A stretch of 64,000 nucleotides of DNA, from assembly GCF_003576375.1 (NCBI RefSeq), contig NZ_QWGE01000003.1, positions 124,001 to 188,000 on the forward strand, written 5' to 3'. Shown here piece by piece: positions 1 to 64,000 of the stretch. Below the pieces are notes generated by a model. It ran no database searches. It saw nothing but the letters and a program-made list of their open reading frames with translations, and was not told the DNA's origin. Each line of letters begins with the position of its first letter. The first letter of the stretch is position 1. The DNA comes from Pontibacter oryzae. Its GTDB lineage: Bacteria > Bacteroidota > Bacteroidia > Cytophagales > Hymenobacteraceae. A program made the translations under genes and the position numbers.

Positions 1-614
1 TTCAGCAGCGGCTTGAGGTCAGCCGAAATCTCGAAAAAAGTATTTCGGTTAGGTTCCAGCTGTTGCGTCATTACAATTTTAAGCGCAGCCACGCCTATGC
101 CTTTACGGGCATTCATAGGTATAACCGGCACGCCAAGCTCACGCTGCAAGGTCTCTACATCAATTTTTACACCCTCCTGCTCAGCCACATCCACCATGTT
201 CAAAGCGAGTACAGCGGGCAGTTGCAGGTCGGCCAGTTGTGTAAAGAGCAGCAGGTTACGCTTCAGGTTAGAGGCGTCGGCGGTAACGATTACAAGATCC
301 GGGAAGTGTCTGGAGGTAGGGTCATAGAGCAAATCCGTGATAACGCGCTCATCCAGCGATTTAGGATACAGGCTATATGTACCCGGTAGATCAATAATCT
401 CGGCTCTGAGCTGCGGGGTAAGCTGGCTATAACCGGTCTTCTTATCCACTGTAACACCCGGGAAGTTGCCTACCTTCTGGTTTAAGCCCGTAAGTTGGTT
501 AAAAAGTGAGGTCTTACCAGAGTTTGGATTACCGATCAGGGCAATTTTAGCCATGCCCGGACCAGAAGTAAGTGTGGAGGTCGGCTTTATTTCAGGTTGG
601 GTTGCTACAGTCAT
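1..614 (-). CDS. feoB: FeoB ferrous iron transporter, N-terminal GTPase part (cut by window edge)
   Basis: FeoB is the inner-membrane Fe(II) transporter whose cytoplasmic N-terminal G domain controls uptake. Only the first 204 codons are in the window; the gene runs off the left edge, so the membrane part is not visible. The ATG is at 614. The G-protein motifs are readable: G1 GNPNSGKTS (Lys34), switch I around GVTVDKK, G3 DLPGTYSL, G4 NMVD and a G5-like NARKG. It lies six bases downstream of feoA on the same strand, the usual feoAB arrangement, and should be co-transcribed from the promoter ahead of feoA. The truncation is caused by the window, not by mutation. Identification is secure from the G motifs plus the feoA neighbour. 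Confidence 0.95.
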   Translation of the reverse strand, partial: MTVATQPEIKPTSTLTSGPGMAKIALIGNPNSGKTSLFNQLTGLNQKVGNFPGVTVDKKTGYSQLTPQLRAEIIDLPGTYSLYPKSLDERVITDLLYDPTSRHFPDLVIVTADASNLKRNLLLFTQLADLQLPAVLALNMVDVAEQEGVKIDVETLQRELGVPVIPMNARKGIGVAALKIVMTQQLEPNRNTFFEISADLKPLL

Positions 615-620
615 GAAAAT

Positions 621-872
621 TTACTGCTTGAGTAAGATGGTCTCGGCTTCGTCTAAGCGCAGCGAGAGGGTATAGTTATTCACGATGATGGTAATTGGAT
701 CGCCGAACGGAGCGCGGCTGTTCATCTTAACACTGGTACCGGGTATGCAACCCATCTCAAGCAACTTAAGGCCCATCTCAGGGTCCTGGAGGCAGCATAT
801 AACACCATGTTCTCCTATCTTCAGGTCGCGCACAGATTTGCGCCCTTTATGCTCTTCTACCTTGTGTTGCAC
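621..872 (-). CDS. feoA: FeoA family protein
   Basis: FeoA is a small cytoplasmic SH3-like protein that supports Fe(II) import by FeoB. The 83-residue product has the family length and pattern: a start on function-regulating strands (SVRDLKIGEHGVI), then the LLEMGCIPGTSV segment, which corresponds to the conserved L..mGl.pG motif, and a C-terminal strand NYTLSLRLDEAETI. It is the first gene of a feoAB operon, with feoB starting six bases after its stop. A good Bacteroidota-type promoter lies 40-70 bases upstream, and an AT-rich imperfect dyad (885-905) sits between promoter and start, where a metal-responsive repressor could bind; that last point is inference. Confidence 0.93.
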   Translation of the reverse strand: MQHKVEEHKGRKSVRDLKIGEHGVICCLQDPEMGLKLLEMGCIPGTSVKMNSRAPFGDPITIIVNNYTLSLRLDEAETILLKQ

Positions 873-910
873 CTCTTAGCTGTTTTTATTTAGACTGCTT
901 ATAAACAACT

Positions 911-942
911 GCAAGTTACGAGGTGTTCAACTTTATTGCAAA
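911..942 (-). promoter_or_regulatory. Predicted promoter of feoAB
   Basis: On the minus strand there is a TTTG (-33) at 939-942, a 20-base spacer and TAACTTGC (-7, consensus TAnnTTTG) at 911-918. This is the Bacteroidota sigma-ABfr arrangement, pointing at feoA (ATG at 872). An imperfect dyad TTTAT-N11-ATAAA at 885-905 lies just downstream and could be a metal-regulator site, but no known Fur or DtxR consensus is matched. Confidence 0.5.
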
Positions 943-1017
943 AGAATTGACGATTTGGCCGTTGCAAGTTCCGGCGATCGCCTGCAAAGTATAAACCTGG
1001 CATCGCCAGCACGCTTT

Positions 1018-3474
1018 TTACTCCGAATAAAAAACTCGCTTCACACGCGTGCTCACGTTTGTAAGCAACTCATAAGGGATCGTGCCGATGCGCTGCGCTA
1101 ACTCAACCAGCGTTAACTGTGGGCCAAAAACAATAACGGTATCTCCGGCTTTCACTGGCAAGCCTGTTACATCAACCATGCACATATCCATGCACACGTT
1201 CCCGATGATTGGGCAGCGGTGGCCGTTAATGATAACCTGCCCCGCCCCGTTGCTGAACCGGCGATCGTAGCCATCGGCATAGCCTATGGCAATGGTAGCG
1301 GTGGTTTTAGCCACATCAGCCATACCTTTACGGCTGTAGCCCACGGTTTCGCCCTGCTTTATACTTTTAACCTGCGATACGGTGGTCTTCAGCGTGCTTA
1401 CCGGGCGCAGTGCCTCCTGCTCCGAGCCGGTTGCCTCCACGCCGTACAAGCCAATGCCCAGGCGCACCATGTCCAATTGATGTTCCGGGAAACGCACAAT
1501 TCCCGCTGAGTTTAGGATATGCTTCACCAGTTTATACTTCAGGCCGTTTTCCAGCGCGCTGGCCATACTCCGGAAGGCGGCGATCTGCTGCTCTGAGAAG
1601 TCGTTGTGCACGGCCTCATCGGCACCGGCCAGGTGGCTGAACGCGCTCACGACCTGCACCTGCGGATGCTGCGCCAGCATGGCAAGGAGCTTCTCAAAAT
1701 CCTCTGGCACAAAGCCCAGGCGGTGCATGCCTGTATCCAGTTTCAGGTGTATTTTATACTTTGCCCCCACCTCCAGCGATTCCAGGAAAGCCTGTAACTG
1801 CTCCAGAGAATAGATTTCGGGCTCCAGATTGTACTGCCGCAGCTTGGCAAAGCTATCCTGCGAAGGGTTCATGACCATAATGGGCAGCGTGATGCCATTC
1901 TCGCGCAAAGCTACGCCCTCGTCTACGTAAGCCACTGCCAGGTAATCCACCCGGTGAAACTGCAGCAGGTTTGCCACCTCGAAGCTGCCGCTACCGTAGG
2001 CAAAGGCCTTTACCATCACCATCAGCTTTGTGTCGGGGGCAAGTTTGGCCCGGTAGTAATTCAGGTTGTGCACCATGGCATCAAGGTTAACCTCCAGCAC
2101 CGTGCCGTGCACCTTCTGCTGAAAAGCCTGTACAATCTTCTCAAACCCGAACACACGCGCGCCTTTCACTAAAATCAGCTCGTTGCGGAAACTGGCAGGC
2201 TCAAAGTGCTTCAGGAAATCAGTGGTGGAAGTATAAAAGTCAGCCTCAGAAAACAGATGGCTATACTTACCGATGGTTGGCCCAATACCGATTAGCCGTT
2301 GCACCTTATGTGCCTGCACCAGGCTGGCGACCTTTTCGTACAGCTGCTCTTCTGGCAAGCCCGATTCCAGCAAATCGGAAAGTATAAGCGTGCGTTTCCC
2401 GCGTTGCGGTTGGCTAGCCTGCAAATCCAGCGCAATGGCGAGGCCGGCCAGGTCATTGTTATAGGTATCGTCTATCAGGTAGCAACTGTTTATGGCCTCC
2501 TTCATTTCTAGGCGCATGGCCACGGGGTGCAGGCGGTCCAGGCGGTCCTGGATGTCGGATAGGGGCAGGCGGCGGTGCAGCAGCACGGCCAGGCAGTGCA
2601 GGGCATTCTCCACAGAAGCCTCATCAGTAAAAGGTATGGCCAGCCGCTGTTTTTCACCTGCAAATGTATACACCACAATGGTTTTATGGCCCACGGTAGA
2701 GGTGGCGTTTATAAACAGGTCTGCTTCGGGGTGCTGCCGGCTCCAGGTAAACGAGTGTATGCCCTGGGCCTGCACCTGCTGGTGCAGCAGGTCGTAATCG
2801 GCGCAGTAAAACAGCAGCTCAACGTGAGCAAACAGCTTCAGTTTTTCCGTTACTTTTTGCTCTCTGGATGCAAAGCCTTCATCGTGGGCGCTGCCGATGT
2901 TGGTGAATATGCCTAAGGTGGGCTGAATAACCTGCTCCAGGTTTTCCATCTCGCCGGGTTGCGAGATACCAGCCTCAAAGATTCCGTAGGTATGCATAGG
3001 CTGGATCTGCCACACACTGAGCGGCACACCCAGCTGCGAGTTGTAGCTGCGCGGGCTTTTCACCACCAGTTCCTCGGGGCTCAGCAACTGCGAGAGCCAC
3101 TCTTTTACTATTGTTTTGCCGTTGCTGCCGGTAATACCCAACACAGGTATATTAAACTGCGCCCGGTGCCAGGCCGCCAGGGCCTGTAAGGCATTGAGGC
3201 TGTTCTTTACCTGCAAAAAGTTGGCCTCTGGATAAAGCTGCTGCAGTTCTTCGGGCTTGCCCTGCTCTACCACAAACGCGCGCACGCCCTGCGCATACAA
3301 CTGGCCCAGGTACTTGTGCCCATCGTTATACTTTCCCCGGATGGCAAAAAACACCGTGCCAGCCGGCTGCGACAGCTTGCGGCTATCGGTGAGCAGGTGC
3401 ACGATGGGTAGCGGCTGCACCAACTGCACCAGCTGCGCCCGGGTTATACTTTGTAACTGCTGAAAGGTAAGCAT
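1018..3474 (-). CDS. murF-alr: Bifunctional UDP-MurNAc-tripeptide:D-Ala-D-Ala ligase / alanine racemase
   Basis: The 818-residue fusion joins the last Mur ligase (adds D-Ala-D-Ala to UDP-MurNAc-tripeptide) to the PLP enzyme that makes D-alanine, so one cytoplasmic protein supplies and uses D-Ala for peptidoglycan. Residues about 1-450 are MurF: the ATP loop GITGSNGKT (Lys120), then the DDTYNND segment of Mur ligases. Residues about 455-818 are Alr: PLP lysine in VKAFAYGSG (Lys489), RLGIGLYG, the catalytic Tyr in ETVGYSRKG, IGYADGYDRR and the active-site Cys region NVCMDMCMVDV. After the P-loop it reads IVKEW rather than the TTKE of stand-alone MurF. Such fusions are established in Bacteroidota. 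It is monocistronic by spacing. Both active sites look intact. Confidence 0.95.
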   Translation of the reverse strand: MLTFQQLQSITRAQLVQLVQPLPIVHLLTDSRKLSQPAGTVFFAIRGKYNDGHKYLGQLYAQGVRAFVVEQGKPEELQQLYPEANFLQVKNSLNALQALAAWHRAQFNIPVLGITGSNGKTIVKEWLSQLLSPEELVVKSPRSYNSQLGVPLSVWQIQPMHTYGIFEAGISQPGEMENLEQVIQPTLGIFTNIGSAHDEGFASREQKVTEKLKLFAHVELLFYCADYDLLHQQVQAQGIHSFTWSRQHPEADLFINATSTVGHKTIVVYTFAGEKQRLAIPFTDEASVENALHCLAVLLHRRLPLSDIQDRLDRLHPVAMRLEMKEAINSCYLIDDTYNNDLAGLAIALDLQASQPQRGKRTLILSDLLESGLPEEQLYEKVASLVQAHKVQRLIGIGPTIGKYSHLFSEADFYTSTTDFLKHFEPASFRNELILVKGARVFGFEKIVQAFQQKVHGTVLEVNLDAMVHNLNYYRAKLAPDTKLMVMVKAFAYGSGSFEVANLLQFHRVDYLAVAYVDEGVALRENGITLPIMVMNPSQDSFAKLRQYNLEPEIYSLEQLQAFLESLEVGAKYKIHLKLDTGMHRLGFVPEDFEKLLAMLAQHPQVQVVSAFSHLAGADEAVHNDFSEQQIAAFRSMASALENGLKYKLVKHILNSAGIVRFPEHQLDMVRLGIGLYGVEATGSEQEALRPVSTLKTTVSQVKSIKQGETVGYSRKGMADVAKTTATIAIGYADGYDRRFSNGAGQVIINGHRCPIIGNVCMDMCMVDVTGLPVKAGDTVIVFGPQLTLVELAQRIGTIPYELLTNVSTRVKRVFYSE

Positions 3475-3519
3475 GCGGTAGCGTTTATACTTCTACATCA
3501 AAGATAGGAAGGGAAAGTT

Positions 3520-3660
3520 TAAAAGTTAGAGAGATAGAGGAGTTAGAAAGTTAGAAGGTTGGGAAGTTAGAAAGGTGTGCTGAGTTGACTGACTTTCCTC
3601 GGAGCAATCAACAAACTAGCAATTCAACCATGCAGCAATTAACAATCAACAATTAAACCC
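3520..3660. repeat. AT-rich low-complexity intergenic repeat (copy 1)
   Basis: Two motif types run together here. First come purine-rich GTTAGAAAG/GTTAGAAGG/GGGAAGTTAGAAAG units (3530-3575), then CAAT-rich units such as CAATTAACAATCAACAATT (3638-3656). The same two word families recur at 9095-9300, 13335-13445, 36236-36345 and 36895-37115, always between genes. No coding potential is visible. Confidence 0.7.
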
Positions 3661-3661
3661 C

Positions 3662-3669
3662 TACCTTTG
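3662..3669 (+). promoter_or_regulatory. Predicted -7 promoter element of the EamA gene at 3696
   Basis: TACCTTTG matches the Bacteroidota -7 consensus TAnnTTTG, 26 bases before the ATG. No TTTG is found at the expected -33 distance, because that position is occupied by the CAAT-rich low-complexity repeat. Confidence 0.45.
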
Positions 3670-3695
3670 CGCACTTTTATACTTTTGAGTGACCT

Positions 3696-4682: not shown

Positions 4683-4697
4683 TAGATTAACTACTTA

Positions 4698-5477: not shown

Positions 5478-8063
5478 TCAGAAACCGAAGCCAACCATAA
5501 GGCCCGTTCTGGCCCTGTTTCCTTCCTGGAACGAGGTTACAAAATCCACGCGCAGCACTTTAAAGATGTGCTCAATGCCTAAGCCAAGCTCCATGTAGTT
5601 CCTGGATTGCTGCGTGTTCAGGTAGTTTATACTTACCACCTCCTGCAGTTTCAGCTTACGGAACAGCGGAATCTTGTTAAAGATAAAGCCGTTGAAATGA
5701 TGCTCGTAATGCGCCTCCAAGTAAGCGTTGTTCGTGCTGTAGCGGTAATAATCCAGCAGCTGGAAGCCGTTGTACACACCTGCCACCAAGGTGCGGTTGC
5801 CGTTAAAGTGCTTGTAATCCATCAGCCGCATATCTTCCTTGCCCCAGAACACGCCCCCGATCGCGCTATACTTGCTGCGGCCCAGCAGGCCAAAACTAAT
5901 GTCGTCGCTCAGGCTAAGGGCTGCCGTGTGGTACTTTACGTCGCCACCAAGCGCTTTCAGGCCACCGCGGTAACTCAGCGTAAAGGTCGGGTACTTAGAG
6001 CCCAGGTTTATTTTATCGTCGGGGCGGGTAATGTATTCCTGACCGGGCTTAAAACTGAGCGCTGCGCTAACCGTAAGGGCCTGGTGCGGCGAAAAAGCGG
6101 CATCGGCCAGTTCAGCGTTTACGGGCACGTTCGGTGTAAAGCGGCTTTCCACGTCATCCATCCCCTTCCTAAAACTGAAGTCTGCAGTGTTCTGTAGCGG
6201 CATGCGGTGGGCGTAATCGGCGCCCAGGCTCAGCCTCACCCCATTCCAAAGCTCGCTGCGGTAAGTTATGCGGCCAAAATCGCGCTGGTACAGCTTCATG
6301 TAGTTGCGCTCGGCAAGCCAGGAATAAAGCGTATTTACGAAAGGTGAGATCGGGTTCAGGTTATTGATCTGGTACACGTAGCGGCCGCCCTCCACGGCAA
6401 TATTGCTGTTCTTGAATGGGTCAAAGTGATAGCTCATGCGCAGTTTCCCGTTGAGCTTTTCGTTGCTGAAACCGTAGCGCACGGCGGGCTCAATGGTATA
6501 AGACCGGCGGTCCTCGAAGCGCTTCACAAACTCCACGCGCAGGTCGGCGGCCACGCCCTCCACGGTGTTGTACTGCAAAATACTCGGGCCTCCCGTCAGG
6601 CTCAGCAGCGGGTCAAAACGGTAAAATTTGCGCTCGTATGTGTTGGAGTACGTATAGCCGCCCAGCAGAAAGCTCCCGAACGAGGGCTTGTTGCGCACCG
6701 CATCCAGCGAGTCCTGGTACGGTCTGGAGTTTTTGATCACCTCGAGGCTGTCCTTTTTATGGTAATCTGCCACTTCCTCCTGCGTGAGCGGCACCGGGCG
6801 CACACTGGCCCAGTACGCAGAATCGCGTTTGTTAGAGCCTTTCTCTACCAGCAGTACCTCCTTGCTGAACACTTTATCGCTGATAACAGGTTGCTCCGGC
6901 TCGGGTGCCTGCACAGGTTCTACAAGCTTATACTTAGGCTTTTTAGGAGGTTTAGCAGCGTCGATAATTGGCTCCTCTTCGGGCTCCACTTCCTCCAGCT
7001 TGGGTGGTTTGGCATAGGCTGGCTGCACTTTATACTTCGAGTACACGCCCATGGCATAGCCGCCACCTTTAAAGCCCAGGCCAGCCGCCTCAAAATCGAA
7101 GCGCTGCGACACAGGCAGCCATACTTGCTCTGTAACCGGGGCGTATACTTGCCGCACCCTTATCCAGTCCACAAACTCAATTCCGGCGTTTTTAGTCAGC
7201 TTGAGGTCGGTGCTATGGACGCGCCAGGTGCCATCCACAATGTAAATATTACCGGCAAACACCGGGTCGTTTTTGCGGCGCGGGATAACTTTGATCTTAT
7301 TGATGGTGTGGCCGTTTTCCTGAAAGGTGCCCAGGTACTCGAAGCGGTAAAAAAACAGCGCATTGTTGGCCAGCGGCGACACGAAGCCGCGCTCGCTCAG
7401 GCCCTGCACCTTCAGCAGCGGGTCGTAGAAACTGATGTTCATCTCGGAGGCCTGGTTAAAGCTAAAGCCTTTCTTCTGGCCGCTCACCTTGCTCGAGATC
7501 ATGCGTTCATGGATTTTGTTGGGCCGCTTATACGCAAGCTCCGACACCGACTCCGACAAGTACACAATGCCCGTATCCACATCCACCACTTTTATACCCA
7601 GTATCTTGGAAGGCACTTTATCCATGCGGGCCACGCTTTTCATGTACACGCGGGCGCTCCAGGCCAGTGCTTCGTCGCGGTGGTATTTGCGCAGCCGGAT
7701 AGCATTGCGCATGATGCTGTAAGCCGGGTCCTCGTCGGTGGCGCGCACCACCACCTCTTTCAGGTTAAGCACCTCGGGCTGCAATGTTATATTCAGTTCC
7801 TGGTCGTCGGCCCCGATGGTTACGGTTTCGAGGTGGGCACGATACCCGACATACTTAAACTCTATGGTGTACGTGCCCGGCGCCAATGCTAATTGGTAAA
7901 GGCCCTGGTCGTTGGTGGCAGTGCCGCTGGCAGTCTCTTTAATGTAGATGCTGGCAAAGGGTAAGCCATGGTTGTTTTCATCGGTCACGCGGCCGCGCAA
8001 TGTACCGGCCCAGGCAAGGGCAGGCAAAAACAGCAGCAGCAAGAGCAGGTAGCAAAAGCGCAT
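5478..8063 (-). CDS. Carboxypeptidase-regulatory-like and DUF5686 domain protein
   Basis: An 861-residue exported protein. Residues 1-19 are a signal peptide (LLFLPALAWAG). Residues about 20-105 are a CarboxypepD_reg-like beta-sandwich (LRGRVTDENNHGLPFASIYI, GTYTIEFKYVGYR), the fold found at the N-terminus of many Bacteroidota outer-membrane proteins. The rest matches the DUF5686 type: long, beta-rich, with a charged proline-rich linker near residues 350-385 and an aromatic end (TGLMVGFGF) typical of an outer-membrane beta-barrel. Function is unknown; an outer-membrane location is inferred. The last 51 bases are part of the 193-bp triplicated unit, but the reading frame is intact. No co-directional gene lies close upstream. 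Confidence 0.88.
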   Translation of the reverse strand: MRFCYLLLLLLFLPALAWAGTLRGRVTDENNHGLPFASIYIKETASGTATNDQGLYQLALAPGTYTIEFKYVGYRAHLETVTIGADDQELNITLQPEVLNLKEVVVRATDEDPAYSIMRNAIRLRKYHRDEALAWSARVYMKSVARMDKVPSKILGIKVVDVDTGIVYLSESVSELAYKRPNKIHERMISSKVSGQKKGFSFNQASEMNISFYDPLLKVQGLSERGFVSPLANNALFFYRFEYLGTFQENGHTINKIKVIPRRKNDPVFAGNIYIVDGTWRVHSTDLKLTKNAGIEFVDWIRVRQVYAPVTEQVWLPVSQRFDFEAAGLGFKGGGYAMGVYSKYKVQPAYAKPPKLEEVEPEEEPIIDAAKPPKKPKYKLVEPVQAPEPEQPVISDKVFSKEVLLVEKGSNKRDSAYWASVRPVPLTQEEVADYHKKDSLEVIKNSRPYQDSLDAVRNKPSFGSFLLGGYTYSNTYERKFYRFDPLLSLTGGPSILQYNTVEGVAADLRVEFVKRFEDRRSYTIEPAVRYGFSNEKLNGKLRMSYHFDPFKNSNIAVEGGRYVYQINNLNPISPFVNTLYSWLAERNYMKLYQRDFGRITYRSELWNGVRLSLGADYAHRMPLQNTADFSFRKGMDDVESRFTPNVPVNAELADAAFSPHQALTVSAALSFKPGQEYITRPDDKINLGSKYPTFTLSYRGGLKALGGDVKYHTAALSLSDDISFGLLGRSKYSAIGGVFWGKEDMRLMDYKHFNGNRTLVAGVYNGFQLLDYYRYSTNNAYLEAHYEHHFNGFIFNKIPLFRKLKLQEVVSINYLNTQQSRNYMELGLGIEHIFKVLRVDFVTSFQEGNRARTGLMVGFGF

Positions 8064-16870: not shown

Positions 16871-19684
16871 TTACTTACTCAAGTATAACTTTCTTTCAGA
16901 GTATACTTTGGTAAAGTAATCGTCTTGCAGATCGTCAATGAAGTAGATGGCCTCGCCAGTGGATTTCATCTCCGGCCCCAGCTCCTTGTTCACTTCCGGG
17001 AACTTGTTGTACGAGAACACAGGCACCTTAATGGCATACCCGTGCTTGTACGGATTAAAGGTAAAGTCCTTTACCTTCTTATCTCCCAGCATAATCTTGG
17101 TCGCGTAGTTGATGTATGGCTCGCGGTAGGCCTTGGCAATGAACGGGAAGGTGCGCGAGGCACGAGGGTTCGCCTCAATGATGTATACTGTCTCGTTCTT
17201 GATGGCGAACTGGATGTTGATCACACCTACAGTCTGAAGGGCCACCGCAATCTTCTTAGTATACTCTTCAATCTGCTTGATCACCTTCTCGCTCAGGTCA
17301 AACGGAGGCAGCACGGCATAAGAGTCTCCGGAGTGAATACCGGCTGGCTCAATGTGCTCCATGATACCGCAGATGTATACATCCTCGCCGTCGCAGATCG
17401 CGTCGGCCTCGGCCTCAATGGCGTTATCAAGGAAGTGATCGAGCAACACTTTATTACCTGGGTGGTCCTTCAGGAGGTCGATCACGTGGGCTTCCAGCTC
17501 TTTCTCGTTGATCACGATTTTCATGTTCTGGCCACCCAGTACGTAGCTTGGGCGCACCAACAGCGGGAACTTTAACTCCTTGCTTAGCTCCAGCGCCTCC
17601 TCTGCCGTCTCAATCACAGCGAACGGCGGGTACGGAATGCTCAGGTCGCGGAGCAAGGCAGAGAACGAGCCACGGTCCTCGGCTAAGTCTAGGGCTTGGT
17701 AGCTTGTTCCGAAGATCTTGATGCCGAAGCGCTCCAGCTTTTCGGCCAATTTCAGGGCTGTCTGCCCGCCCAGCTGCACTATTACGCCTTCTGGCTTTTC
17801 GTGCAGAATGATATCGTAGATATGCTCCCAGAACACTGGCTCGAAGTACAGCTTGTCCGAAATGTCGAAGTCTGTGGATACCGTCTCTGGGTTGCAGTTG
17901 ATCATGATGGTCTCGTAGCCGCACTCCTTGGCCGCCAGCACGCCGTGCACGCAGCTATAGTCGAACTCGATGCCCTGCCCGATGCGGTTCGGGCCGGAAC
18001 CCAGCACCACTACTTTCTTTTTATCAGACACTACGCTCTCGTTCTCCCCATCGAAGGTGCTGTAGTAGTAAGGTGTGTTCGCCTCGAACTCAGCCGCACA
18101 GGTATCCACCATTTTGTAGACCCTAGTAATGCCCAACTCGGTGCGCACGCTGTGCACTTCGCTTTCCTTGCAGCGCAACAGGTGCGCAATCTGGCGGTCG
18201 GCGTAGCCTTTTATCTTGGCCTCGCGCAGCAACTCTGCCGGTATGGTGGCCAGGCTATACTTCTCAATCTCCTTCTCCGTCACGTCCAGCTCCTCGATCT
18301 GGTTCAGGAACCATGGGTCGATTTTCGTGAGCTTCTGGATGGTGCTGGTCGGGATACCGATGCGCATGGCGTCTTTGATGCTGAACAGGCGGTTCCAGCT
18401 TGGGTTGGCGAGGCTATAAATCAGCTCGTCGTAGTTGGTCTTCTCCTTGCCGTCCGCGCCAATGCCGTTTCGCTTGATCTCCAAGCTCTGGCATGCCTTC
18501 TGCAGCGCCTCCTGGAAGGTGCGGCCAATGCCCATCACCTCACCCACCGATTTCATCTGCAGGCCCAGTTTGCGGTCTGCGCCCGGAAACTTATCGAAGT
18601 TCCAGCGCGGTATTTTCACGATCACGTAATCCAGGGCAGGCTCGAAGTAAGCCGACGTGGTTTTGGTGATGGCGTTTTTCAGTTCGTCCAGGTTATACCC
18701 GATGGCTAGCTTAGCTGCTATCTTCGCGATTGGGTAACCGGTAGCTTTGGAGGCCAGCGCCGAAGAGCGGGAAACGCGCGGGTTAATCTCAATGGCGATG
18801 ATGGTATCGTCTTCTGGGTTCACGGAGAACTGCACGTTACAGCCACCCGCAAACTGCCCGATACCGTTCATCATTTTGATGGCCAGGTCGCGCATCTGCT
18901 GGTATACCGTGTCGGGCAGCGTCATGGCCGGGGCCACCGTAATCGAGTCGCCGGTATGCACACCCATCGGGTCGAAGTTCTCTATAGAGCAGATAATGAT
19001 CACGTTGCCGATGTTGTCGCGCAGCAGTTCCAACTCATACTCCTTCCACCCCAGGATGCTTTGCTCCACTAGCACCTCGTGCGTAGGCGAAGCATGTAAG
19101 CCGCGTGTTAAGGCTGCATCAAACTCCTCGGGGGTATGTACAAAGCCACCACCGTAGCCACCCAGCGTAAACGACGGACGGATAACCAGCGGGAAGCCAA
19201 TCTCCTGTGCAATCTCTTTTCCTTCCAAAAACGATGTGGCTGTCTCGCCCTTGCACACGTTCACGCCAAGCTCCAGCATCTTCAATCGGAACTCCTCGCG
19301 GTCCTCGGTTGTCTCAATCGCTTTGATGTCCACGCCGATGATTTTCACGCCGTACTTTTTCCATATACCGGCTTTGTCACAGTCTATGGCAAGGTTCAGG
19401 GCGGTCTGGCCGCCCATGGTTGGCAGCACGGCATCAATTTGGTGCTTCTCCAGAATCTCGATGATGTACTTCTTCTCCAACGGCTTCAGGTACACATGGT
19501 CGGCCGTTACCGGGTCGGTCATGATCGTGGCTGGGTTAGAGTTGATGAGAATGACTTCTATTCCCTCTTCGCGGAGCGAGCGGGCGGCTTGTGAGCCAGA
19601 ATAGTCGAATTCGCAGGCCTGGCCGATTATGATAGGACCAGAACCAATAATTAAAACGGATTTGATGGAGGTGTCTTTAGGCAT
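16871..19684 (-). CDS. carB: Carbamoyl-phosphate synthase large subunit
   Basis: The 937-residue protein makes carbamoyl phosphate from ammonia (delivered by CarA), bicarbonate and two ATP, for arginine and pyrimidine synthesis. The N-terminal half begins VLIIGSGPIIIGQACEFDYSG; the repeated half begins VVVLGSGPNRIGQGIEFDYSC; both contain ATP-grasp domains (RPSFTLGGYGGG; RPSYVLGGQNM). It ends at about the start of the C-terminal MGS-like allosteric domain found in E. coli CarB (about 1070 residues), so ornithine/UMP control through that domain is absent; short CarB proteins are usual in Bacteroidota. I chose ATG 19684 (MPKDTS) over 19738, because a good promoter lies at 19708-19739, inside the longer frame. 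carA is not in the window. Confidence 0.95.
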   Translation of the reverse strand: MPKDTSIKSVLIIGSGPIIIGQACEFDYSGSQAARSLREEGIEVILINSNPATIMTDPVTADHVYLKPLEKKYIIEILEKHQIDAVLPTMGGQTALNLAIDCDKAGIWKKYGVKIIGVDIKAIETTEDREEFRLKMLELGVNVCKGETATSFLEGKEIAQEIGFPLVIRPSFTLGGYGGGFVHTPEEFDAALTRGLHASPTHEVLVEQSILGWKEYELELLRDNIGNVIIICSIENFDPMGVHTGDSITVAPAMTLPDTVYQQMRDLAIKMMNGIGQFAGGCNVQFSVNPEDDTIIAIEINPRVSRSSALASKATGYPIAKIAAKLAIGYNLDELKNAITKTTSAYFEPALDYVIVKIPRWNFDKFPGADRKLGLQMKSVGEVMGIGRTFQEALQKACQSLEIKRNGIGADGKEKTNYDELIYSLANPSWNRLFSIKDAMRIGIPTSTIQKLTKIDPWFLNQIEELDVTEKEIEKYSLATIPAELLREAKIKGYADRQIAHLLRCKESEVHSVRTELGITRVYKMVDTCAAEFEANTPYYYSTFDGENESVVSDKKKVVVLGSGPNRIGQGIEFDYSCVHGVLAAKECGYETIMINCNPETVSTDFDISDKLYFEPVFWEHIYDIILHEKPEGVIVQLGGQTALKLAEKLERFGIKIFGTSYQALDLAEDRGSFSALLRDLSIPYPPFAVIETAEEALELSKELKFPLLVRPSYVLGGQNMKIVINEKELEAHVIDLLKDHPGNKVLLDHFLDNAIEAEADAICDGEDVYICGIMEHIEPAGIHSGDSYAVLPPFDLSEKVIKQIEEYTKKIAVALQTVGVINIQFAIKNETVYIIEANPRASRTFPFIAKAYREPYINYATKIMLGDKKVKDFTFNPYKHGYAIKVPVFSYNKFPEVNKELGPEMKSTGEAIYFIDDLQDDYFTKVYSERKLYLSK

Positions 19685-19707
19685 TGGGATGGTATGTATA
19701 AATTGCC

Positions 19708-19739
19708 CAAAGTTACCGCAAAATGTTTTGGCACGCAAA
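19708..19739 (-). promoter_or_regulatory. Predicted carB promoter
   Basis: Minus strand: TTTG (-33) at 19736-19739, 20-base spacer, TAACTTTG (-7) at 19708-19715. Both boxes match the Bacteroidota consensus exactly, about 24 bases before the chosen ATG. Confidence 0.65.
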
Positions 19740-30133: not shown

Positions 30134-31150
30134 ATGAGCCTACCTACAAACCTAAGCCTTCCTGTTATAGATCTGCATTGTGACCTGCTGGTATATCTCA
30201 CCGATGTGCCAAACGCAGACATGAACAAGTTGGAAGACATTGGTTGTGCCGTGCCAAGCCTGGCCGAGGGCAATATTAAGCTTCAGGTAATGGCAATTTA
30301 CTCCGCTGTGGGCACAGGCAGCACACGTTACGCTGAATTACAGCGGGACATGTTTCGGCGCCTGGCCGACGACCAAACCAACTGCCTGACTGCCGTAACC
30401 AATGCCGCCAAGCTAGCCGAGGTGATGCAGCAGCCCGGCGGGGTTGGCATGGTAGCGGCCATTGAGAACGCCGCTGGTTTCTGCGAGGAGCATGAGCCGC
30501 TGGAAGATGGCTTTAAGCGCCTTGAGAAGATGATTGAAGTATGCGGCCGCATCTTGTACATCAGCTTTACCCACCATACAGCCAATCGTTTTGGCGGAGG
30601 CAACGCCAGCATGCAGGGCATTACCAGAGACGGCAAAATGCTGCTAGATTATCTGCACGGCCGCCGCATCGCCGTGGATTTATCGCATACCAGCGATGCC
30701 CTGGCCTTCGACATGCTGGAGCATATAGACCGCGAGAAACTGGACATTCCGCTGATTGCGAGCCACTCAAACTTCAGGCATGTATGGCAGCACGAGCGCA
30801 ACCTGCCCGATGAGCTGGCTCAGGAGCTTATCCGGCGCAAGGGGCTTATTGGCATGAATTTCTTGCGCAAGTTTGTTCATGCTGAGTTGCCGGAGGAGGC
30901 TTTGCTGGAGCACATTGTGTATGGTTTTGCAAACGGTGCTGAAGACGCGCTATGCTTTGGTGCCGATTACTTCTATTTTGCCGACGAGCAGGACCTCAGC
31001 CGTTTCCCTTTCTACCATAAGGTGCACGAACAGGCTGGCAGCAGCTATGCCCATATTTTGCATAGCCTTCGGGAGCAACTTACTCCCCGGCAGTTACAGA
31101 AACTGGCATATAGCAACGCCCGGCAATTTGTAGAACGCCTCTGGGAATAG
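30134..31150 (+). CDS. M19 family (membrane/renal type) dipeptidase
   Basis: A 338-residue binuclear zinc dipeptidase. The metal and catalytic motifs are DLHCD near residue 14, the AIENA strand (bridging Glu), DLSHTSD, IASHSNFRHV with the following RN, and GADYF near the end. It lacks a signal peptide, so it acts in the cytoplasm; family members split a range of dipeptides and some act on D-amino acid or cysteinylglycine dipeptides. A near-consensus -7 element TATCTTTC lies at 30104-30111. It may be co-transcribed with DUF4864 upstream. Confidence 0.9.
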   Translation: MSLPTNLSLPVIDLHCDLLVYLTDVPNADMNKLEDIGCAVPSLAEGNIKLQVMAIYSAVGTGSTRYAELQRDMFRRLADDQTNCLTAVTNAAKLAEVMQQPGGVGMVAAIENAAGFCEEHEPLEDGFKRLEKMIEVCGRILYISFTHHTANRFGGGNASMQGITRDGKMLLDYLHGRRIAVDLSHTSDALAFDMLEHIDREKLDIPLIASHSNFRHVWQHERNLPDELAQELIRRKGLIGMNFLRKFVHAELPEEALLEHIVYGFANGAEDALCFGADYFYFADEQDLSRFPFYHKVHEQAGSSYAHILHSLREQLTPRQLQKLAYSNARQFVERLWE

Positions 31151-31309
31151 GCTGAGATTATTCTACCTCTGTGCACATCCTACTTTTTAATTAACTTCTG
31201 GTTTTATACGTAATTATTCCTATATTTAAATTACCAGGATTTGACAAAAGGATAAAGCCTTTGTGCGGAGAATACGGAGACCTGGCATTCACTCAAAAAA
31301 TTTATATTT

Positions 31310-31495
31310 ATGAAATTTATCGGGTTATTTCTTTTGCTGGCTGGGTTGGTTTCGCTGGTGCTCGAGTTTACGGGCGCTAATCTAGTTGTTCTCAATTGGT
31401 TAAGCCAGTTTGGAGAGACCGGCAGTTGGGCTATTCGTATTGGCATAACTGCGCTCGGAGGCATAATTTATTATGTGCGCCGCCATGATGATTAG
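31310..31495 (+). CDS. Very small membrane protein
   Basis: A 61-residue protein with two predicted membrane segments (IGLFLLLAGLVSLVLEFTG; AIRIGITALGGIIYYV) and a basic end (RRHDD). It has a normal Met start and good codon use. The composition fits small Bacteroidota inner-membrane proteins; no function is known. Confidence 0.6.
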   Translation: MKFIGLFLLLAGLVSLVLEFTGANLVVLNWLSQFGETGSWAIRIGITALGGIIYYVRRHDD

Positions 31496-31614
31496 GCCTT
31501 GACTCAAATTTCTATATAGATTGATTGCCATGTGCCGCAAAACTCCGTATACGCAAAATAATACCCGCACAGCACCGTATGGGCCAAAAACCAAAATCTT
31601 AAAGCCGTAATGCC

Positions 31615-32274
31615 ATGGACGCTCAGGAATATTCGCCGCACTACGTACAAATAAATGAACTGTATATTGATACAGTTGTGATTGACGATACCGAGTTTAT
31701 TACGCTTTGGTGTTTTACGGTGCTTGATGATGAGTATAAATTCGTTTACCTGGGCTGTGACTTCTGCCAGTTTAACCAAATACTGATTGCTGCCGGCGAA
31801 AAAGGTAAGGAAATGGCGCTACACCTGGCCGAAGTGCTGGATAAGCCTTACGAAACCCCTACCCTCATCCCGATTAAGGAGCAGTTTGATGAGTACCTCG
31901 AGCTCACCGGCCACGATATTATTGTGTATGAACCCATGGCTATAGAAGATGGTTTCGAGGAATACGACGAGGAAGACGAAGACCTGCCACTGGAGCAGCT
32001 TTTTGGCGGCAGATCAAACAAAACCCACCAGAAATACCTTATCTACCAGCTCGACAAATTGTATCCTTCTAAAGTGTTTGAGCCCGAAAAACGCAGCCAA
32101 GAAGACCTTACTGAATGTTTTGAGGATGACTCGCTGGAGCTGGCACAATTATACTACGATTACCTGAATGCCGTGGAGAATGGCTACAGTGAGTGCGAGG
32201 CAAGGCAGGTAGCCGGCCTGGACCGCGAACTGTTTTTCCGGATGGCGCGCAAAGCCTCTGAAGCCTGGAAGTAG
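31615..32274 (+). CDS. Acidic hypothetical protein
   Basis: A 219-residue acidic soluble protein. The first part forms strands (VQINELYIDTVVIDDTEFITLWCF, YKFVYLGCDFCQFNQIL), the middle is very acidic (EEYDEEDEDLPLEQL), and the last third is helical (LAQLYYDYLNAVENGYSECEARQVAGL). No signal, membrane segment or recognised domain. It may be a binding or adaptor protein, but I cannot assign a role. It is single, with a convergent DUF4142 gene 26 bases away. Confidence 0.7.
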   Translation: MDAQEYSPHYVQINELYIDTVVIDDTEFITLWCFTVLDDEYKFVYLGCDFCQFNQILIAAGEKGKEMALHLAEVLDKPYETPTLIPIKEQFDEYLELTGHDIIVYEPMAIEDGFEEYDEEDEDLPLEQLFGGRSNKTHQKYLIYQLDKLYPSKVFEPEKRSQEDLTECFEDDSLELAQLYYDYLNAVENGYSECEARQVAGLDRELFFRMARKASEAWK

Positions 32275-32300
32275 CCCACCGGGCAACAACACATTCTGTG

Positions 32301-32876
32301 TTATAACAATGCATCTTCTGCCACGCTAGCAGAGTCCAGTTTGCTAAATGCGTTTATCTCTTCGCGCAGGTGGCTACGCATATCCATTATCCAATCCCGT
32401 ATTTTCTGATCATCAGCTTTCACCAAGGCCTCTTCATAGCGGTCTAGTTGCGCGTTGTGCGTACTAATGATAAACTCCTGATACCGCAGATCAAACTCCT
32501 CGCCTTCCAGCAATTTCATTTCCTGCACCAGGCCCTGATCGGCTCCGGCAAGGCTATCTGGCAATAAGATATTATCCTGTTTACTTACCAACTGCTGCAG
32601 TTGCTGCAAGGCTCCGGCATGATATGTTACGGCATCTTGGGCCATTGCTCGCAGTTTAGCGGAGCTAGCCTTTTGCTCAGCCAGTTTGCCCAGCGCCACT
32701 TGCAGCATGTTGCTGCTGGCGGCATAATCCCAGAAGGCCGGCTCGTGCAGTAAGGTGCGTGTGCGTGTTTCAGGTATTGCCTCCGCGGTATCCTTTTCAG
32801 CAGCAGGTCCCTCGCAAGCCAGCACCAGCAGAAAAATCACACCAAGGATGAAAGAAATCAATTTATCGGTTAACAT
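32301..32876 (-). CDS. DUF4142 lipoprotein
   Basis: A 191-residue lipoprotein with lipobox LVLAC (Cys21) and a four-helix DUF4142 body: FWDYAASSNMLQVALGKLAEQKA, LRAMAQDAVTYHAGALQQLQQLV and FIISTHNAQLDRYEEAL. DUF4142 is a ferritin-like helical bundle without known metal ligands in many members; here the helix His residues (YHAG, THNAQ) match the family. Location is the periplasm or outer membrane. Function is unknown. Confidence 0.8.
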   Translation of the reverse strand: MLTDKLISFILGVIFLLVLACEGPAAEKDTAEAIPETRTRTLLHEPAFWDYAASSNMLQVALGKLAEQKASSAKLRAMAQDAVTYHAGALQQLQQLVSKQDNILLPDSLAGADQGLVQEMKLLEGEEFDLRYQEFIISTHNAQLDRYEEALVKADDQKIRDWIMDMRSHLREEINAFSKLDSASVAEDALL

Positions 32877-32997
32877 ATATCGGGTGCGTAGTATAGATCT
32901 TTTTAACCTATACTATGCATCAGTATACTTAGGTTGAGCTAATCATAAACTTCACCTCAAAGTATAATTCACCCTCCTCAGACTACTAAATAAGGCC

Positions 32998-57323: not shown

Positions 57324-57373
57324 ACTATCATTGCCATCATAGCCATACCAAATCCAGTTACATTCTTCTTAAA

Positions 57374-60336: not shown

Positions 60337-60465
60337 CACGCTCTAAGCTCTACCGGATAAATCTGCACTTATAAGTAAACAATTTTATCGCACTTAGGTA
60401 TTGTAGTATCACGCATATTTTACTGAGTGAGTTAATAAACAGGTCTATTTTTAAGCCTGATATAC

Positions 60466-60481
60466 TACCTTTACGTAAAGG
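60466..60481 (+). promoter_or_regulatory. Candidate promoter/operator of the PAS kinase gene
   Basis: TACCTTTA (60466-60473, near TAnnTTTG) overlaps the perfect 14-bp palindrome CCTTTACGTAAAGG (60468-60481), 51 bases upstream of the ATG. The half-site CTTTAC/GTAAAG is shared with the inverted repeat at 39272-39287. Confidence 0.4.
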
Positions 60482-60531
60482 CAAGCTTCTGGCGAAAAAA
60501 GCAAGCCACTAGGCATATCCGTATTTTTATC

Positions 60532-63500
60532 ATGGAAAAAGCACCTTCTTATACTTCTGCAGCAGACTTTGTGGCGCTATTTGAGTCACTGCCAGGTTTG
60601 TACCTGCTTTTATCACCCGATTTACGAATACAGGCGGCTACCAAAAGTTACCTGAGAGCCATTAACGCCGATGAGCATGAGATTATAGGCAAGTATTTTA
60701 TGGATGCCTTTTCCAGCACCTCGTTCCCGGCTAACTCTTCTGCTTTAGGCGAGATAGAGATAGCCCTGGTGAAAAGCGTAACCGAGAAAGACACCACCAC
60801 ATTGGAGCAACTTCGCCTGGATGTATTGGCAGGGCAGGAAGCATACTGGGAGGCAACCAATACGCCGATGTTTGACGCTGAAGGCAAACTAACCTACATT
60901 CTGCAAGAAGTGCGCGACATTACCAAGAAAGTGTTTGCAGAGCGTGAGTTCGCCTCCACCCAAGACAACCTGCTGATCATGTCGAAAGTGGCTGGCGTTG
61001 TAGTATGGGAATGCGATGTGCCCGCCAACAAGCTGGTCTGGAGTGATAGCTATAAAGAGATTTTCGGTTATACCGACAGTGACCTGATTACAACCCTGGA
61101 TGTTTGGGACGAGCAAGTGCACCCTGATGACTTCCCGCAGCTGCGCAACAGCCTGAACAACGCGCTCTTGAACGGGCAGAAATCATGGACTGGCGAGTAC
61201 CGCTACCGCCGAGCTGATGGAACTTACGCAGATGTGTTCGACCATGGCTATATTTTCTATGACCCACAACAAAAGCCCCTGCGCATGCTGGGGTCAATAG
61301 TGGATATAACCAACCAGAAAAAACACGCACATGAGGTAAAGGAGAGCAATGAACGCTTCGAGCGTGTAGCCATGGCCACAAACGACGTAATATGGGATTG
61401 GGACCTGGTAAACCAAACCGTGTGGTGGAACGAAGGTTTCAAGACTTTGTTTGGATACGATGATGCGGTTCTGCTGCAGGAGCCAGGACCTGAATCATGG
61501 ACGAACCGCATTCACCCTGATGACATAGGTACCGTCAGCGACACTATACATCATACGATAGATCACGGCAGCGTGTGGCAGGCAGAATACCGCTTTCGCT
61601 GCCAAAACGGCGCCTATAAACTAGTGCTTGACAAGGGCTACGTTATCCGGAACGAGAAAGGCGAATCGGTGCGCATGGTTGGTGCCATGGTGGACATAAC
61701 GGAGCAACGCGAAACCGCCCTAAAGCTTCAGGCATCCATGGCCCGCACCCAAGATGTTCTGGAATCATTGCCTTTGATGACTTGGACAGCAACTCCTGAA
61801 GGCAACGTAGATTATTACAGCTCTCGCTGGTACGACTATACAGCTGCTAGCTTTGATGAGCTCAAAAACTGGGGATGGGAGCACTTTATCCACCCGGATG
61901 ATTGGGAGATAACGAAAAAAGTATGGTTGAAATCCCTGAAAGAGGCCTCTCCCTTTCACCTTGAAAACCGCTGGCTTAGCAAAAGCGGCGAATACCGCTG
62001 GTTTTTGGCTCGCGCGCTGCCGATCTACGATAGTGCTGGCAACATTACCATGTGGGTCGGCTCACATACCGACATTGAAGAGCAGAAGCAGATGATGCTG
62101 AAGCTGGAGGACAGCAACAGTAAGTTTATGATGTTAGCGGAGTCTATCCCTCATATTGTGTGGAGCGGAAACCCTGACGGACATGTGGACTACTTTAACC
62201 AACAGTGGTACGACTACACCAAAATGACGCAGGAAGAGACGCTGGGTTTTGGCTGGGGACCATCGCTGCACCCCGACGACCAACAACCCACCGTAAACGA
62301 CTGGCTACACTCCATGCGCACCGGCGAGAAGTACGAGCGAGAGCTGCGCCTGCGCGACATCAACACCGAGGACTACCGCTGGTTTCTGGCACGTGCCCTC
62401 CCTCACCGCAATGCCGAAGGGGAGATAGTTAAATGGTTCGGAACAGCCACCTACATACATGAGCAAAAGTTACTTCGCGAGAAAGTAGAGGAATCCGAGA
62501 AGCAGTTCCGGTTCCTGGCCGAGTCTATCCCGCAGCTGGTTTGGACCACGCGCCCGGACGGATATACGGACTATTTTAACAAACGCTGGTACGAGTACAC
62601 GGGCATGAAGCTTGAAAATAGCTTAGGTGATGCTTGGAACACTGTGCTGCACCCGGATGACCAAAAGCGAGCCATTGAACGCTTCCAGTATTCTCTCCGC
62701 ACCGGTGAGTACTATGAAATAGAATACCGCATCAAGAATGGGTATAATGACACTTACCGCTGGTTTCTGGGCCAGGGCATGCCGATGCGCGATGAGCAGG
62801 GGAATATAATCAAATGGTTCGGCACCTGCACTGACATTGAGGATCACAAGCGCGCGGAGGAGGAGCTGGTGGAAAAGAACATTGAACTAGAACGCATCAA
62901 CCAGGACCTGGACAGCTTTGTATACACAGCCTCTCATGACCTGAAACTGCCGATCATTAACATGTCCGGCATCTTTGACGAGTTGATGAATGATGCAACG
63001 TTCAACGACCCGGACGCCCCGAAGCTAATCGAAATGTTCAACAAGTCTCTAAAGCAGCTGCACAACACCATTTACGACCTAAGTGAGGTAGTGCGTATAC
63101 AGCGCACGAAAGACCATAAACTGGATGACATAGACCTTAACGAAACAATAAAGGATGTGCTGACAAGCGTACAAGATCAGATCGATAGTATGGGGGCCAA
63201 AGTCTCAGTTGACTTCTCTGCTGTAGATAAAGTGCCGTTTACACGCTCCAGCCTAAAGAGTATACTTTATAATTTGGTGAGCAATGCCTTAAAGTATCGC
63301 TCCCCGGACCGTATGCCGGAAATTAGTGTTACATCTGCCCTTAAGGCTGATTACATAGAACTGAAAGTACAGGACAATGGACTGGGCATCGACATGAATA
63401 AACACGAGAGCAAGCTATTCCAGATGTTTAAGCGATTCCATAGCCACGTAAAAGGCTCAGGACTAGGATTATACATTGTAAACAGGCTCTTAAGCAACCA

Positions 63501-63576
63501 CGGCGGCTATATCAACATCGAAAGCTCCGTAAACGAGGGTACTACCTTTTACCTATACTTTAAACTGAAGAAATAA
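60532..63576 (+). CDS. Multi-PAS sensor histidine kinase
   Basis: A 1014-residue soluble hybrid-less kinase. It has about six PAS/PAC repeats: the first (FVALFESLPGLYLLLSPDLR) matches that of genes 1 and 2, followed by repeats with VWECDVPANKLVWSDSYKEIFGYT, WDWDLVNQTVWWNEGFKTLFGY and three LPLMTWTATPEGN/IPHIVWSGNPDGH/IPQLVWTTRPDGY types. Then HisKA with His802 in TASHDLKLP and a HATPase with NLVSNALKY, DNGLGID and GSGLGLYIV. No membrane segment, so it senses a cytoplasmic or diffusible signal. The receiver at 63591 starts 14 bases after the stop and is the likely partner. Confidence 0.93.
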   Translation: MEKAPSYTSAADFVALFESLPGLYLLLSPDLRIQAATKSYLRAINADEHEIIGKYFMDAFSSTSFPANSSALGEIEIALVKSVTEKDTTTLEQLRLDVLAGQEAYWEATNTPMFDAEGKLTYILQEVRDITKKVFAEREFASTQDNLLIMSKVAGVVVWECDVPANKLVWSDSYKEIFGYTDSDLITTLDVWDEQVHPDDFPQLRNSLNNALLNGQKSWTGEYRYRRADGTYADVFDHGYIFYDPQQKPLRMLGSIVDITNQKKHAHEVKESNERFERVAMATNDVIWDWDLVNQTVWWNEGFKTLFGYDDAVLLQEPGPESWTNRIHPDDIGTVSDTIHHTIDHGSVWQAEYRFRCQNGAYKLVLDKGYVIRNEKGESVRMVGAMVDITEQRETALKLQASMARTQDVLESLPLMTWTATPEGNVDYYSSRWYDYTAASFDELKNWGWEHFIHPDDWEITKKVWLKSLKEASPFHLENRWLSKSGEYRWFLARALPIYDSAGNITMWVGSHTDIEEQKQMMLKLEDSNSKFMMLAESIPHIVWSGNPDGHVDYFNQQWYDYTKMTQEETLGFGWGPSLHPDDQQPTVNDWLHSMRTGEKYERELRLRDINTEDYRWFLARALPHRNAEGEIVKWFGTATYIHEQKLLREKVEESEKQFRFLAESIPQLVWTTRPDGYTDYFNKRWYEYTGMKLENSLGDAWNTVLHPDDQKRAIERFQYSLRTGEYYEIEYRIKNGYNDTYRWFLGQGMPMRDEQGNIIKWFGTCTDIEDHKRAEEELVEKNIELERINQDLDSFVYTASHDLKLPIINMSGIFDELMNDATFNDPDAPKLIEMFNKSLKQLHNTIYDLSEVVRIQRTKDHKLDDIDLNETIKDVLTSVQDQIDSMGAKVSVDFSAVDKVPFTRSSLKSILYNLVSNALKYRSPDRMPEISVTSALKADYIELKVQDNGLGIDMNKHESKLFQMFKRFHSHVKGSGLGLYIVNRLLSNHGGYINIESSVNEGTTFYLYFKLKK

Positions 63577-63590
63577 CACTGATATAGAAC

Positions 63591-63998
63591 ATGAGAAGGC
63601 TCAATACCATACTGCTTATCGATGATGATGACACCACAAACTACCTGAATCATCGTTTACTTAACCGCCTGGAGGTCGCTCCGGACATACGTGTCGTGAT
63701 GAATGGCGAAGAAGCCATTGACTATTTGAACAAGTCGTTTGCCAGCGTGGATGGCTACCCACGCCCTGACCTTATCTTTGTGGATATCAAAATGTCGGTA
63801 ATGGATGGCTTTGAGTTTCTGGAAGAGTACCAGCAGTATGCCGATGCGCAGAAGCGTGAGATAGTGCTGCTCATGCTCACATCCTCTGCCAGCTTCTATG
63901 ACCTGGAAAAGCTGAAGCACTTCCCGGACGTGCGCAGGCATTACTCCAAGCCGCTGGCTGAAGCCGATGTACGCGAAATTTTGCACGAGTTCTTTTAA
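63591..63998 (+). CDS. CheY-like response regulator (single receiver domain)
   Basis: A 135-residue stand-alone receiver: acidic pair in ILLIDDDDTTNYL, phospho-acceptor Asp65 in LIFVDIKMSVMDGFEF, Thr/Ser in LMLTSSASFYD and Lys in RRHYSKPL. No output domain. It is directly downstream of the multi-PAS kinase (14-base gap) and should be phosphorylated by it; it may pass phosphate on or bind a target. It ends at the right window edge, but the stop codon is inside. Confidence 0.92.
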   Translation: MRRLNTILLIDDDDTTNYLNHRLLNRLEVAPDIRVVMNGEEAIDYLNKSFASVDGYPRPDLIFVDIKMSVMDGFEFLEEYQQYADAQKREIVLLMLTSSASFYDLEKLKHFPDVRRHYSKPLAEADVREILHEFF

Positions 63999-64000
63999 AC

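Follow-up and report, generated by a model that had tools for sequence, protein, structure and literature searches.

A 64,000-nucleotide stretch of the Pontibacter oryzae genome (contig NZ_QWGE01000003.1 of assembly GCF_003576375.1, positions 124,001 to 188,000; hereafter the window) is strewn with the heptamer AAGTATA and its complement TATACTT, and in our estimation there is about an even chance that the extended form AAGTATAR is this Pontibacter lineage's dialect of a DNA-uptake-type self-recognition sequence. The word is highly iterated, strand-neutral, chromosomal, rewritten from lineage to lineage and depleted on several plasmids, which is the combination that biased uptake followed by homologous exchange predicts.

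An exact count places 117 copies in the window, compared with expectations of 8.1 from base composition and of 7.3, 12.4 and 26.0 under Markov models of order 1, 2 and 3, and no other heptamer present at least 15 times reaches as high an order-3 score. AAGTATA accounts for 52 copies on the plus strand, with first bases at 987, 2229, 2380, 8482, 8816, 10498, 10940, 14344, 14607, 15805, 16759, 16795, 16851, 16881, 19890, 19940, 20967, 27139, 27815, 28712, 28975, 29212, 32960, 33003, 33203, 33522, 33690, 33992, 34000, 35234, 35366, 35622, 35718, 39505, 39613, 40032, 40116, 42476, 43746, 46046, 46570, 47797, 51744, 51990, 53181, 54429, 55251, 55279, 56844, 58650, 59958 and 60134. The other 65 lie on the minus strand, reading TATACTT, with first bases at 1360, 1533, 1755, 2262, 3327, 3445, 3486, 3678, 3811, 3942, 4283, 4302, 4489, 5628, 5867, 6929, 7031, 7144, 8140, 8157, 10167, 11224, 11582, 13146, 13328, 15125, 16414, 16425, 16432, 16902, 18256, 21829, 22403, 24114, 25210, 26013, 29632, 29976, 32924, 33206, 35842, 37625, 38169, 38345, 39254, 40947, 43301, 43749, 44551, 45619, 48078, 49242, 50337, 51819, 52765, 57027, 57195, 57277, 57438, 58659, 59961, 60243, 60550, 63261 and 63554. 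The original prediction, made by eye from the letters, had called the heptamer over-represented, and the counts bear this out: at least 24 copies had been claimed for the first 10 kb and 25 are there, each of the 21 positions listed has a real copy no more than 6 bases away, and the density, said to stay similar up to 63 kb, varies between 10 and 21 copies in successive 8-kb bins (21, 15, 14, 10, 20, 12, 11 and 14).

The motif is broader than first described, since AAGTATG is enriched as well (29 plus-strand and 40 minus-strand copies in the window, 69 in all, versus 8.3 expected at order 1). The base following the 205 window copies of AAGTAT is A in 57% and G in 34% of cases; the base after AAGTATR (R being A or G) is A, G or C and rarely T (10%), and positions further out carry at most 0.07 bits each. 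In 464 kb from two genomes, AAGTATA stands at 19.2 times and AAGTATG at 6.7 times the order-1 expectation, while the remaining one-mismatch words stand at 0.6–3.4 times, so that the motif is a sharp AAGTATR-type word of 7–8 bases whose reader tolerates little change.

Could such a word be a by-product of codon, codon-pair or dinucleotide bias, or of a protein or RNA signal? Certain reading frames and peptides, such as KY and LYF, are indeed favoured. However, in 400 kb of the Pontibacter genome G001 a simple open reading frame (ORF) caller places 176 copies in sense orientation, 177 in antisense and 206 outside ORFs; all frames are used, the intergenic share (0.369) is close to that of permuted words (0.332), and Markov models fall far short of the observed count while most one-mismatch neighbours stay near background. 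We consider the probability of this explanation negligible. The claims that copies occur in genes of both orientations, in all frames and in spacers, and that neither a protein motif nor promoters are the cause, are therefore supported, and the two tests set beforehand, Markov expectation and codon or dinucleotide bias, left the enrichment standing. The claim that the motif forces the rare codon ATA was overstated: the word contributes ATA codons but does not account for them, 27 of the 162 in 17 long window ORFs lying wholly within an AAGTATR copy. Promoters and terminators are ruled out by the intergenic share and by the small number of close inverted pairs in AAGTATA genomes. Spacing between copies in G001 is near exponential (standard deviation/mean 1.09). 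Other forms of the word, introduced below, show some local structure: pairs closer than 20 bases are scarce in AGGTATA loci (8 versus 24.7 expected) and in excess in the AACTATA set (43 versus 19.1, 27 of them an overlapping palindrome), and the AACTATA set has more sense than antisense copies (125 versus 63), one antisense frame being such that it would contain a stop codon.

The same excess extends over the whole P. oryzae genome (4.23 Mb in 9 contigs), which has 3343 forward and 3362 reverse copies of AAGTATA, 6705 together, whereas the word read backwards occurs 213 + 209 = 422 times; window and genome counts together rule out chance or composition as the cause. A count in 39 genomes gave 966 to 11,818 copies in 25 Pontibacter genomes, the maximum being in G013 (control 333), and no consistent excess in 14 genomes of other families (0.4–1.3 times control). 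Two wider surveys each followed one form of the word. ARSTATAR, counted in 150 genomes, ranges within 50 Pontibacter from near control level (G065 and G141), through 1.2 times control in G040, up to 16,572 copies in the 4.1-Mb G055, and in none of 100 genomes from five other genera of the family does it exceed about 1.4 times control. AAGTATAA, counted in 392 genomes of the phylum with a completeness of 90% or more, occurs 3503 times in P. oryzae (control 134) and in none of the other 391 exceeds about 1.7 times control. As a separate observation, ARSTATAR counts are highest in Pontibacter genomes of about 4.0–4.5 Mb and low in those of 5.8–6.5 Mb.

Overall, the genome count, the sharp profile, the equality of sense and antisense, the intergenic share and the word-specific conservation described below point to a motif acting at the level of DNA. 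The original prediction had proposed a genome-wide recognition motif and had listed uptake, nucleoid or segregation proteins, methylation and an RNA-level signal as possible causes; recognition of DNA is supported, and the RNA signal and polar segregation are disfavoured. In regard to the latter, a strong orientation relative to replication is expected of Chi and KOPS, which like the Pontibacter word are over-represented short DNA words, theirs being read by proteins. When 20 stretches of G001 were halved by GC skew (L061–L069 and L070–L080), the 564 copies, summed by hand, divided into 317 in one orientation relative to replication and 247 in the other, which is a weak bias only. Copies are also evenly spread, at 20–38 per 20 kb over the 20 stretches without clustering, with a mean of 7.06 and a variance of 8.38 in 5-kb bins. 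A polar segregation or Chi motif was accordingly rejected.

An unoriented site for a chromosome-maintenance or recombination protein (a nucleoid protein, a Chi-like stimulator, a repair factor) is a more serious competitor. Here the specificity of the protein would drift by lineage and selection at each site would keep the word on the chromosome. The even spread fits this, as do word-specific conservation, plasmid depletion and sense/antisense neutrality. Set against it are the lack of orientation, which leaves no polar guide of the KOPS kind and no typical oriented Chi, the lack of clustering in the 20 stretches, and a more than ten-fold variation in copy number within one genus, down to background in G065 and G141, which is hard to reconcile with an essential function. 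We know of no chromosome-maintenance motif that occurs once per 250–800 bases and has lineage dialects, no search for one having been made, and we give this alternative roughly one chance in four.

The Pontibacter word comes in dialects. Two genes of the window served as orthology anchors: a minus-strand gene at 5478..8063 whose product matches the Pfam families DUF5686 and CarbopepD_reg_2, used also for the dialect tree and with no role in the mechanism claimed for it, and, as second anchor only, the minus-strand gene at 16871..19738 for the large chain of carbamoyl phosphate synthase (Pfam). Relatives of the DUF5686 protein were found at 26 Pontibacter loci and one Botryobacter locus with 66–83% identity, and at three weak Chitinophaga loci, which places the window in Pontibacter. 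The top heptamer in 22-kb orthologous loci is AAGTATA or AGGTATA depending on the species, ACTATAG/AACTATA in one, and none in a few. Pooled samples of 26–400 kb, in which 8-mer enrichment depends on an order-2 model, gave AAGTATAA at 26 times expectation in G001, AGGTATAG at 35 times, AACTATAG at 93 times in G018, ATATATAA at 9 times in G040 and GGGTATAA at 10 times in G133, with AACTATA and AAGTATA mixed in G055, G070 and G089. When aligned, the dialects read NNN-TATA-R, the front triplet being AAG, AGG, AAC, GGG or ATA; the GGG (GGGTATAA) and ATATATAR dialects rest on 120-kb samples of two genomes.

Whole-genome counts cover the 50 Pontibacter. AGGTATAG occurs 2823–5222 times in 12 genomes and at most 833 times in the other 38; AACTATAG occurs 6288–8208 times in five, 907–2617 times in G070, G089 and G079, and at most 476 times in the other 42; strand counts of both are near equal. 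GATATATAR reaches 480 copies in G040 and 28–118 in the other 49, but its control is poor, as the reversed word shares the TATATA core and is raised too (259). Samples of 15–120 kb show no clear word in G024, G141, L003/L004, L017, L020 and L023, where a rare dialect could escape, and L013 has a weak AAGTATA excess only (4 times in 14 kb). In G065 (L082, L213–L217) and G143 (L085, L218–L222), genomes without the usual word, 120 kb each revealed a mild excess of AATTATTC (9.0 and 6.9 times), which does not fit NNN-TATA-R. A maximum-likelihood tree built from 28 DUF5686 proteins unites the 11 AGGTATA species in one clade (support 100/100), and the 10 AAGTATA species require 2 changes on it; the 6 species that lack a word or have an unclear one require 4, at least 3 of them forced by starred branches, which implies several losses or gains. 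The dialects follow the gene tree.

Conservation at orthologous places was counted at sites aligned without gaps and flanked by over 60 aligned bases; several of the pairs share a species, so that the sites are not independent. Within the AAGTATA dialect (8 pairs) 0.62 of 303 sites keep the word, compared with 0.33 of 1960 permuted-word sites, and within the AGGTATA dialect (6 pairs) 0.77 of 275 do, compared with 0.33 of 2244. The flanks are equal in identity to control flanks (0.804 versus 0.808 and 0.848 versus 0.854, respectively), and the word is kept about twice as often as permuted words in surroundings that are no better conserved, an answer to the orthologous-site check proposed with the original prediction. 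In this comparison within dialects, no clear preference is seen for the word of the other dialect (0.21 versus 0.26 at 34 sites; 0.33 versus 0.24 at 18 sites). Across dialects the word is kept at 0–10% of places (control words 1–22%), with AAGTATA opposite AGGTATA at 2–6 of 24–40 places per pair. The word is thus preserved wherever it belongs to the dialect in use, and what is preserved is the word, not the place.

These findings also bear on a purely mutational origin, in which the word is written, to no benefit, by a gene-conversion or mutational machine such as short-patch repair or, as discussed for HIP1, mismatch repair linked to methylation. The cyanobacterial HIP1 is an example of an iterated word whose occurrence can follow that of methyltransferases (PMC4390886). 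In Pontibacter, near-miss words are mildly raised (AAGTATG aside), and the third and fourth dialects have palindromic cores (CTATAG and TATATA). Yet AAGTATAA, AGGTATAG and GGGTATAA are not palindromic, which leaves no shared palindromic methyltransferase site beyond TATA; such a machine should also act on resident plasmids, whose Pontibacter-like representatives are depleted; and conservation at orthologous sites requires retention, not writing alone. We regard this origin as improbable.

The plasmid evidence comes from a small sample, in which two plasmids are strongly and one is mildly depleted and one likely mobile element is free of the word. The complete P. akesuensis plasmid has 34 copies of AAGTATA in 116,138 bases, whereas 148 would be expected at the chromosomal 1.27 per kb, and the complete P. 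kalidii plasmid has 20 in 73,841 bases versus 128 at 1.74 per kb; all three plasmids hold 16–66% of the chromosomal density, the densities being whole-genome counts over rounded sizes with the plasmid included. In the 20 kb that were compared, the second contig of G001 and the P. akesuensis plasmid are identical. The tetranucleotide signatures of the four contigs considered (these plasmids and the second contig of G002 discussed below), motif tetramers excluded, correlate at 0.77–0.88 with half of the G001 chromosome sample, and at 0.29–0.64 with samples of 20 kb taken from other genera and families, and since this signature is Pontibacter-like the contigs look long resident in Pontibacter. 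Family searches covered the largest gap of the G001 sample and that of the window. The former, the largest AAGTATR-free gap in the 400 kb (8.1 kb; L078 611–8757, in G001:C1), adjoins a tRNA gene, holds DUF3987 and DUF6371/zinc-ribbon genes and three ORFs without a Pfam match, and has a TaqI/MmeI-type specificity domain at its edge; judged by this content, it is likely a mobile element. The longest motif gap of the window, 30537–32924, holds M19 peptidase and DUF4142 genes and nothing mobile.

Depletion in the three plasmids and the likely mobile element would also be expected of a self-marker by which a defence or restriction-like system spares self DNA, and one copy per few hundred bases would tag any long self fragment. 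Against this stands the persistence of word-depleted plasmids in these same hosts. We know of no defence system of this self-marker type, none having been searched for, and consider it a decidedly long shot.

Among the causes listed in the original prediction, dialects and plasmid depletion thus favour an uptake-type sequence without proving it. We infer three things that go with it, namely competence in Pontibacter, biased uptake and a receptor that reads the word. The mechanism can be envisioned as follows: a surface or periplasmic DNA receptor, belonging to a competence machinery without type IV pili, would prefer DNA carrying NNN-TATA-R; imported fragments from kin would replace their chromosomal homologues, and word-bearing alleles would be imported more often than wordless ones; the word would accumulate and persist by biased homologous exchange (molecular drive); and a change in the receptor affecting the three upstream positions would lead to a slow rewriting of the genome into a new dialect. 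In its full form the proposal is that self-DNA uptake sequences evolved here independently for a third time, with three dialects at the least, and probably five, in one genus, and with a pilus-independent receptor reading a TATA-R half that stays fixed and a three-base half that evolves; taken as a whole, we put this slightly below an even chance.

Genome-wide uptake words have been described in Pasteurellaceae and in Neisseriaceae, and the receptors there, known or predicted, are type IV pilins. The DNA uptake sequence (DUS) of Neisseriaceae resembles the Pontibacter word in its thousands of copies, its lineage dialects consistent with phylogeny and its conserved core beside variable positions (PMC3630211), and also in being kept at orthologous places; it is reported to be conserved and over-represented in the core genome and absent in recently acquired genes (PMC2397512). 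The uptake signal sequence (USS) of Pasteurellaceae is likewise a highly iterated short word, linked to competence in a small bacterial genome, for which accumulation by molecular drive has been proposed (PMC7811141, PMC12616744, PMC1939737). Copy number, occurrence on both strands and in all frames, orthologous conservation and rarity in acquired DNA are found in Pontibacter as expected of uptake sequences, and so are dialects by phylogeny, as in Neisseriaceae. There are also differences. Pontibacter belongs to another phylum, its word has 7–8 bases and a TATA-R core where DUS has at least 10 bases and CTG, and its uptake function is putative; the USS has a 9-base core, a long AT-rich extension (29 bases) and a predicted pilin receptor, whereas the Pontibacter extension is one or two bases. 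HIP1 is similar in some respects, being a short word iterated genome-wide with strong variation among relatives and an open function (PMC4390886); it is palindromic and tied to methyltransferases, however, while three of the five Pontibacter words are non-palindromic, a departure from the HIP1 type of palindromic word with a methyltransferase core, and the dialects differ by base changes within one genus.

As for machinery, ComEC and HhH proteins are present in 29 of 29 genomes tested, and a protein of about 320 residues with three HhH repeats in all 24 Pontibacter tested (broken in one); their presence is permissive for competence, not proof of it. The pilus/secretion ATPase family PF00437 has no full-length match in the 29 genomes, only partial ones in 25 of them, none above 25.9 bits and 2 just over the cut-off, whereas all 14 control genomes are positive; this search was for PF00437 alone, secretin and pilins not being searched. 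On this ATPase evidence, a type IV pilus machinery with a minor-pilin receptor is not found, no ComP-like receptor is expected and a pilin receptor is unlikely; the type IV pilus route was rejected on these grounds. A precedent is available in Riemerella anatipestifer, also of the Bacteroidota, which transforms via machinery unlike the known pilus type and requires ComEC, DprA, ComF, RecA and a triple-HhH protein, as well as CarboxypepD_reg, DUF5689 and DUF1343 proteins (PMC8459023); the Pontibacter triple-HhH protein resembles the essential Riemerella one in having three HhH domains. The neighbourhoods of the ComEC and triple-HhH genes gave no obvious receptor among ORFs whose first residues were inspected, no family search having been run there.

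It is important to stress that several observations weigh against an uptake sequence. The core is shorter than the uptake cores of Haemophilus (9) and Neisseria (10) (PMC1939737), and the copies do not lie in more permissive stretches, their flanks being no more divergent than control flanks, unlike the result for permissive sites in Neisseria. Over its first 50 kb the P. actiniarum plasmid is only mildly depleted (27 AAGTATA versus 41 at 0.82 per kb), and the second contig of G002 (60 of 127 kb, and perhaps no plasmid) is not depleted, with 19 copies versus about 23, G002 being a weak-word genome (2052 AAGTATA in 5.4 Mb). DUF5689, a domain of a Riemerella candidate, was rejected as the receptor, since it occurs in only 13 of 29 genomes and not in the strong-motif G013, G006 and G070; by size and first residues at 8 loci, its genes seem either to belong to SusCD-type operons or to encode proteins of 1260–1300 residues. 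ComEC is intact in G065, G141, G143 and G024, Pontibacter with little or no motif, and lies in two frames in G018 (L254), among the most motif-rich genomes. G022 (L146, L271) has ComEC in two frames and the triple-HhH gene in three, and AAGTATA is still frequent there (5476 versus 623). With G018 word-rich despite its broken ComEC, the breaks do not simply track the motif, although sequencing error is possible. Finally, much of the pattern predicted by an uptake sequence would also follow from a chromosome-bound protein whose specificity drifts; of the evidence here, the ten-fold variation and loss among species of one genus, together with the absence of any strong bias in position or strand, best separates the two.

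What is new about the word is its dialects within Pontibacter. We found no report in the openly licensed literature of uptake words in Bacteroidota or of this word as a genome motif, which is not proof of absence. If the dialect set is what it appears to be, biased uptake of self DNA, or some other chromosomal self-recognition, evolved again in Bacteroidota with other machinery; the switches, mixed stages and losses within one genus would then provide a test series for molecular drive versus selection, and a surface protein that changes with the dialect would offer a route to the outer-membrane DNA receptor of Bacteroidota.

Two minor observations may be added. Other genera of the family have frequent words with palindromic cores, which are more HIP1-like: ACCTAGG/CCCTAGG, with 27 and 16 in 20 kb, and CGCATGCG, with 12 over both strands, that is, 6 places in 20 kb (L103 = G042:C1:1-20000; L101 = G039:C1:1-20000). 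In addition, G020:C1:1944098-1946633 contains at least 39 copies of AGGTATAG spaced regularly at 64–69 bases, a CRISPR-like array in which the repeat seems to include the word of the other dialect.

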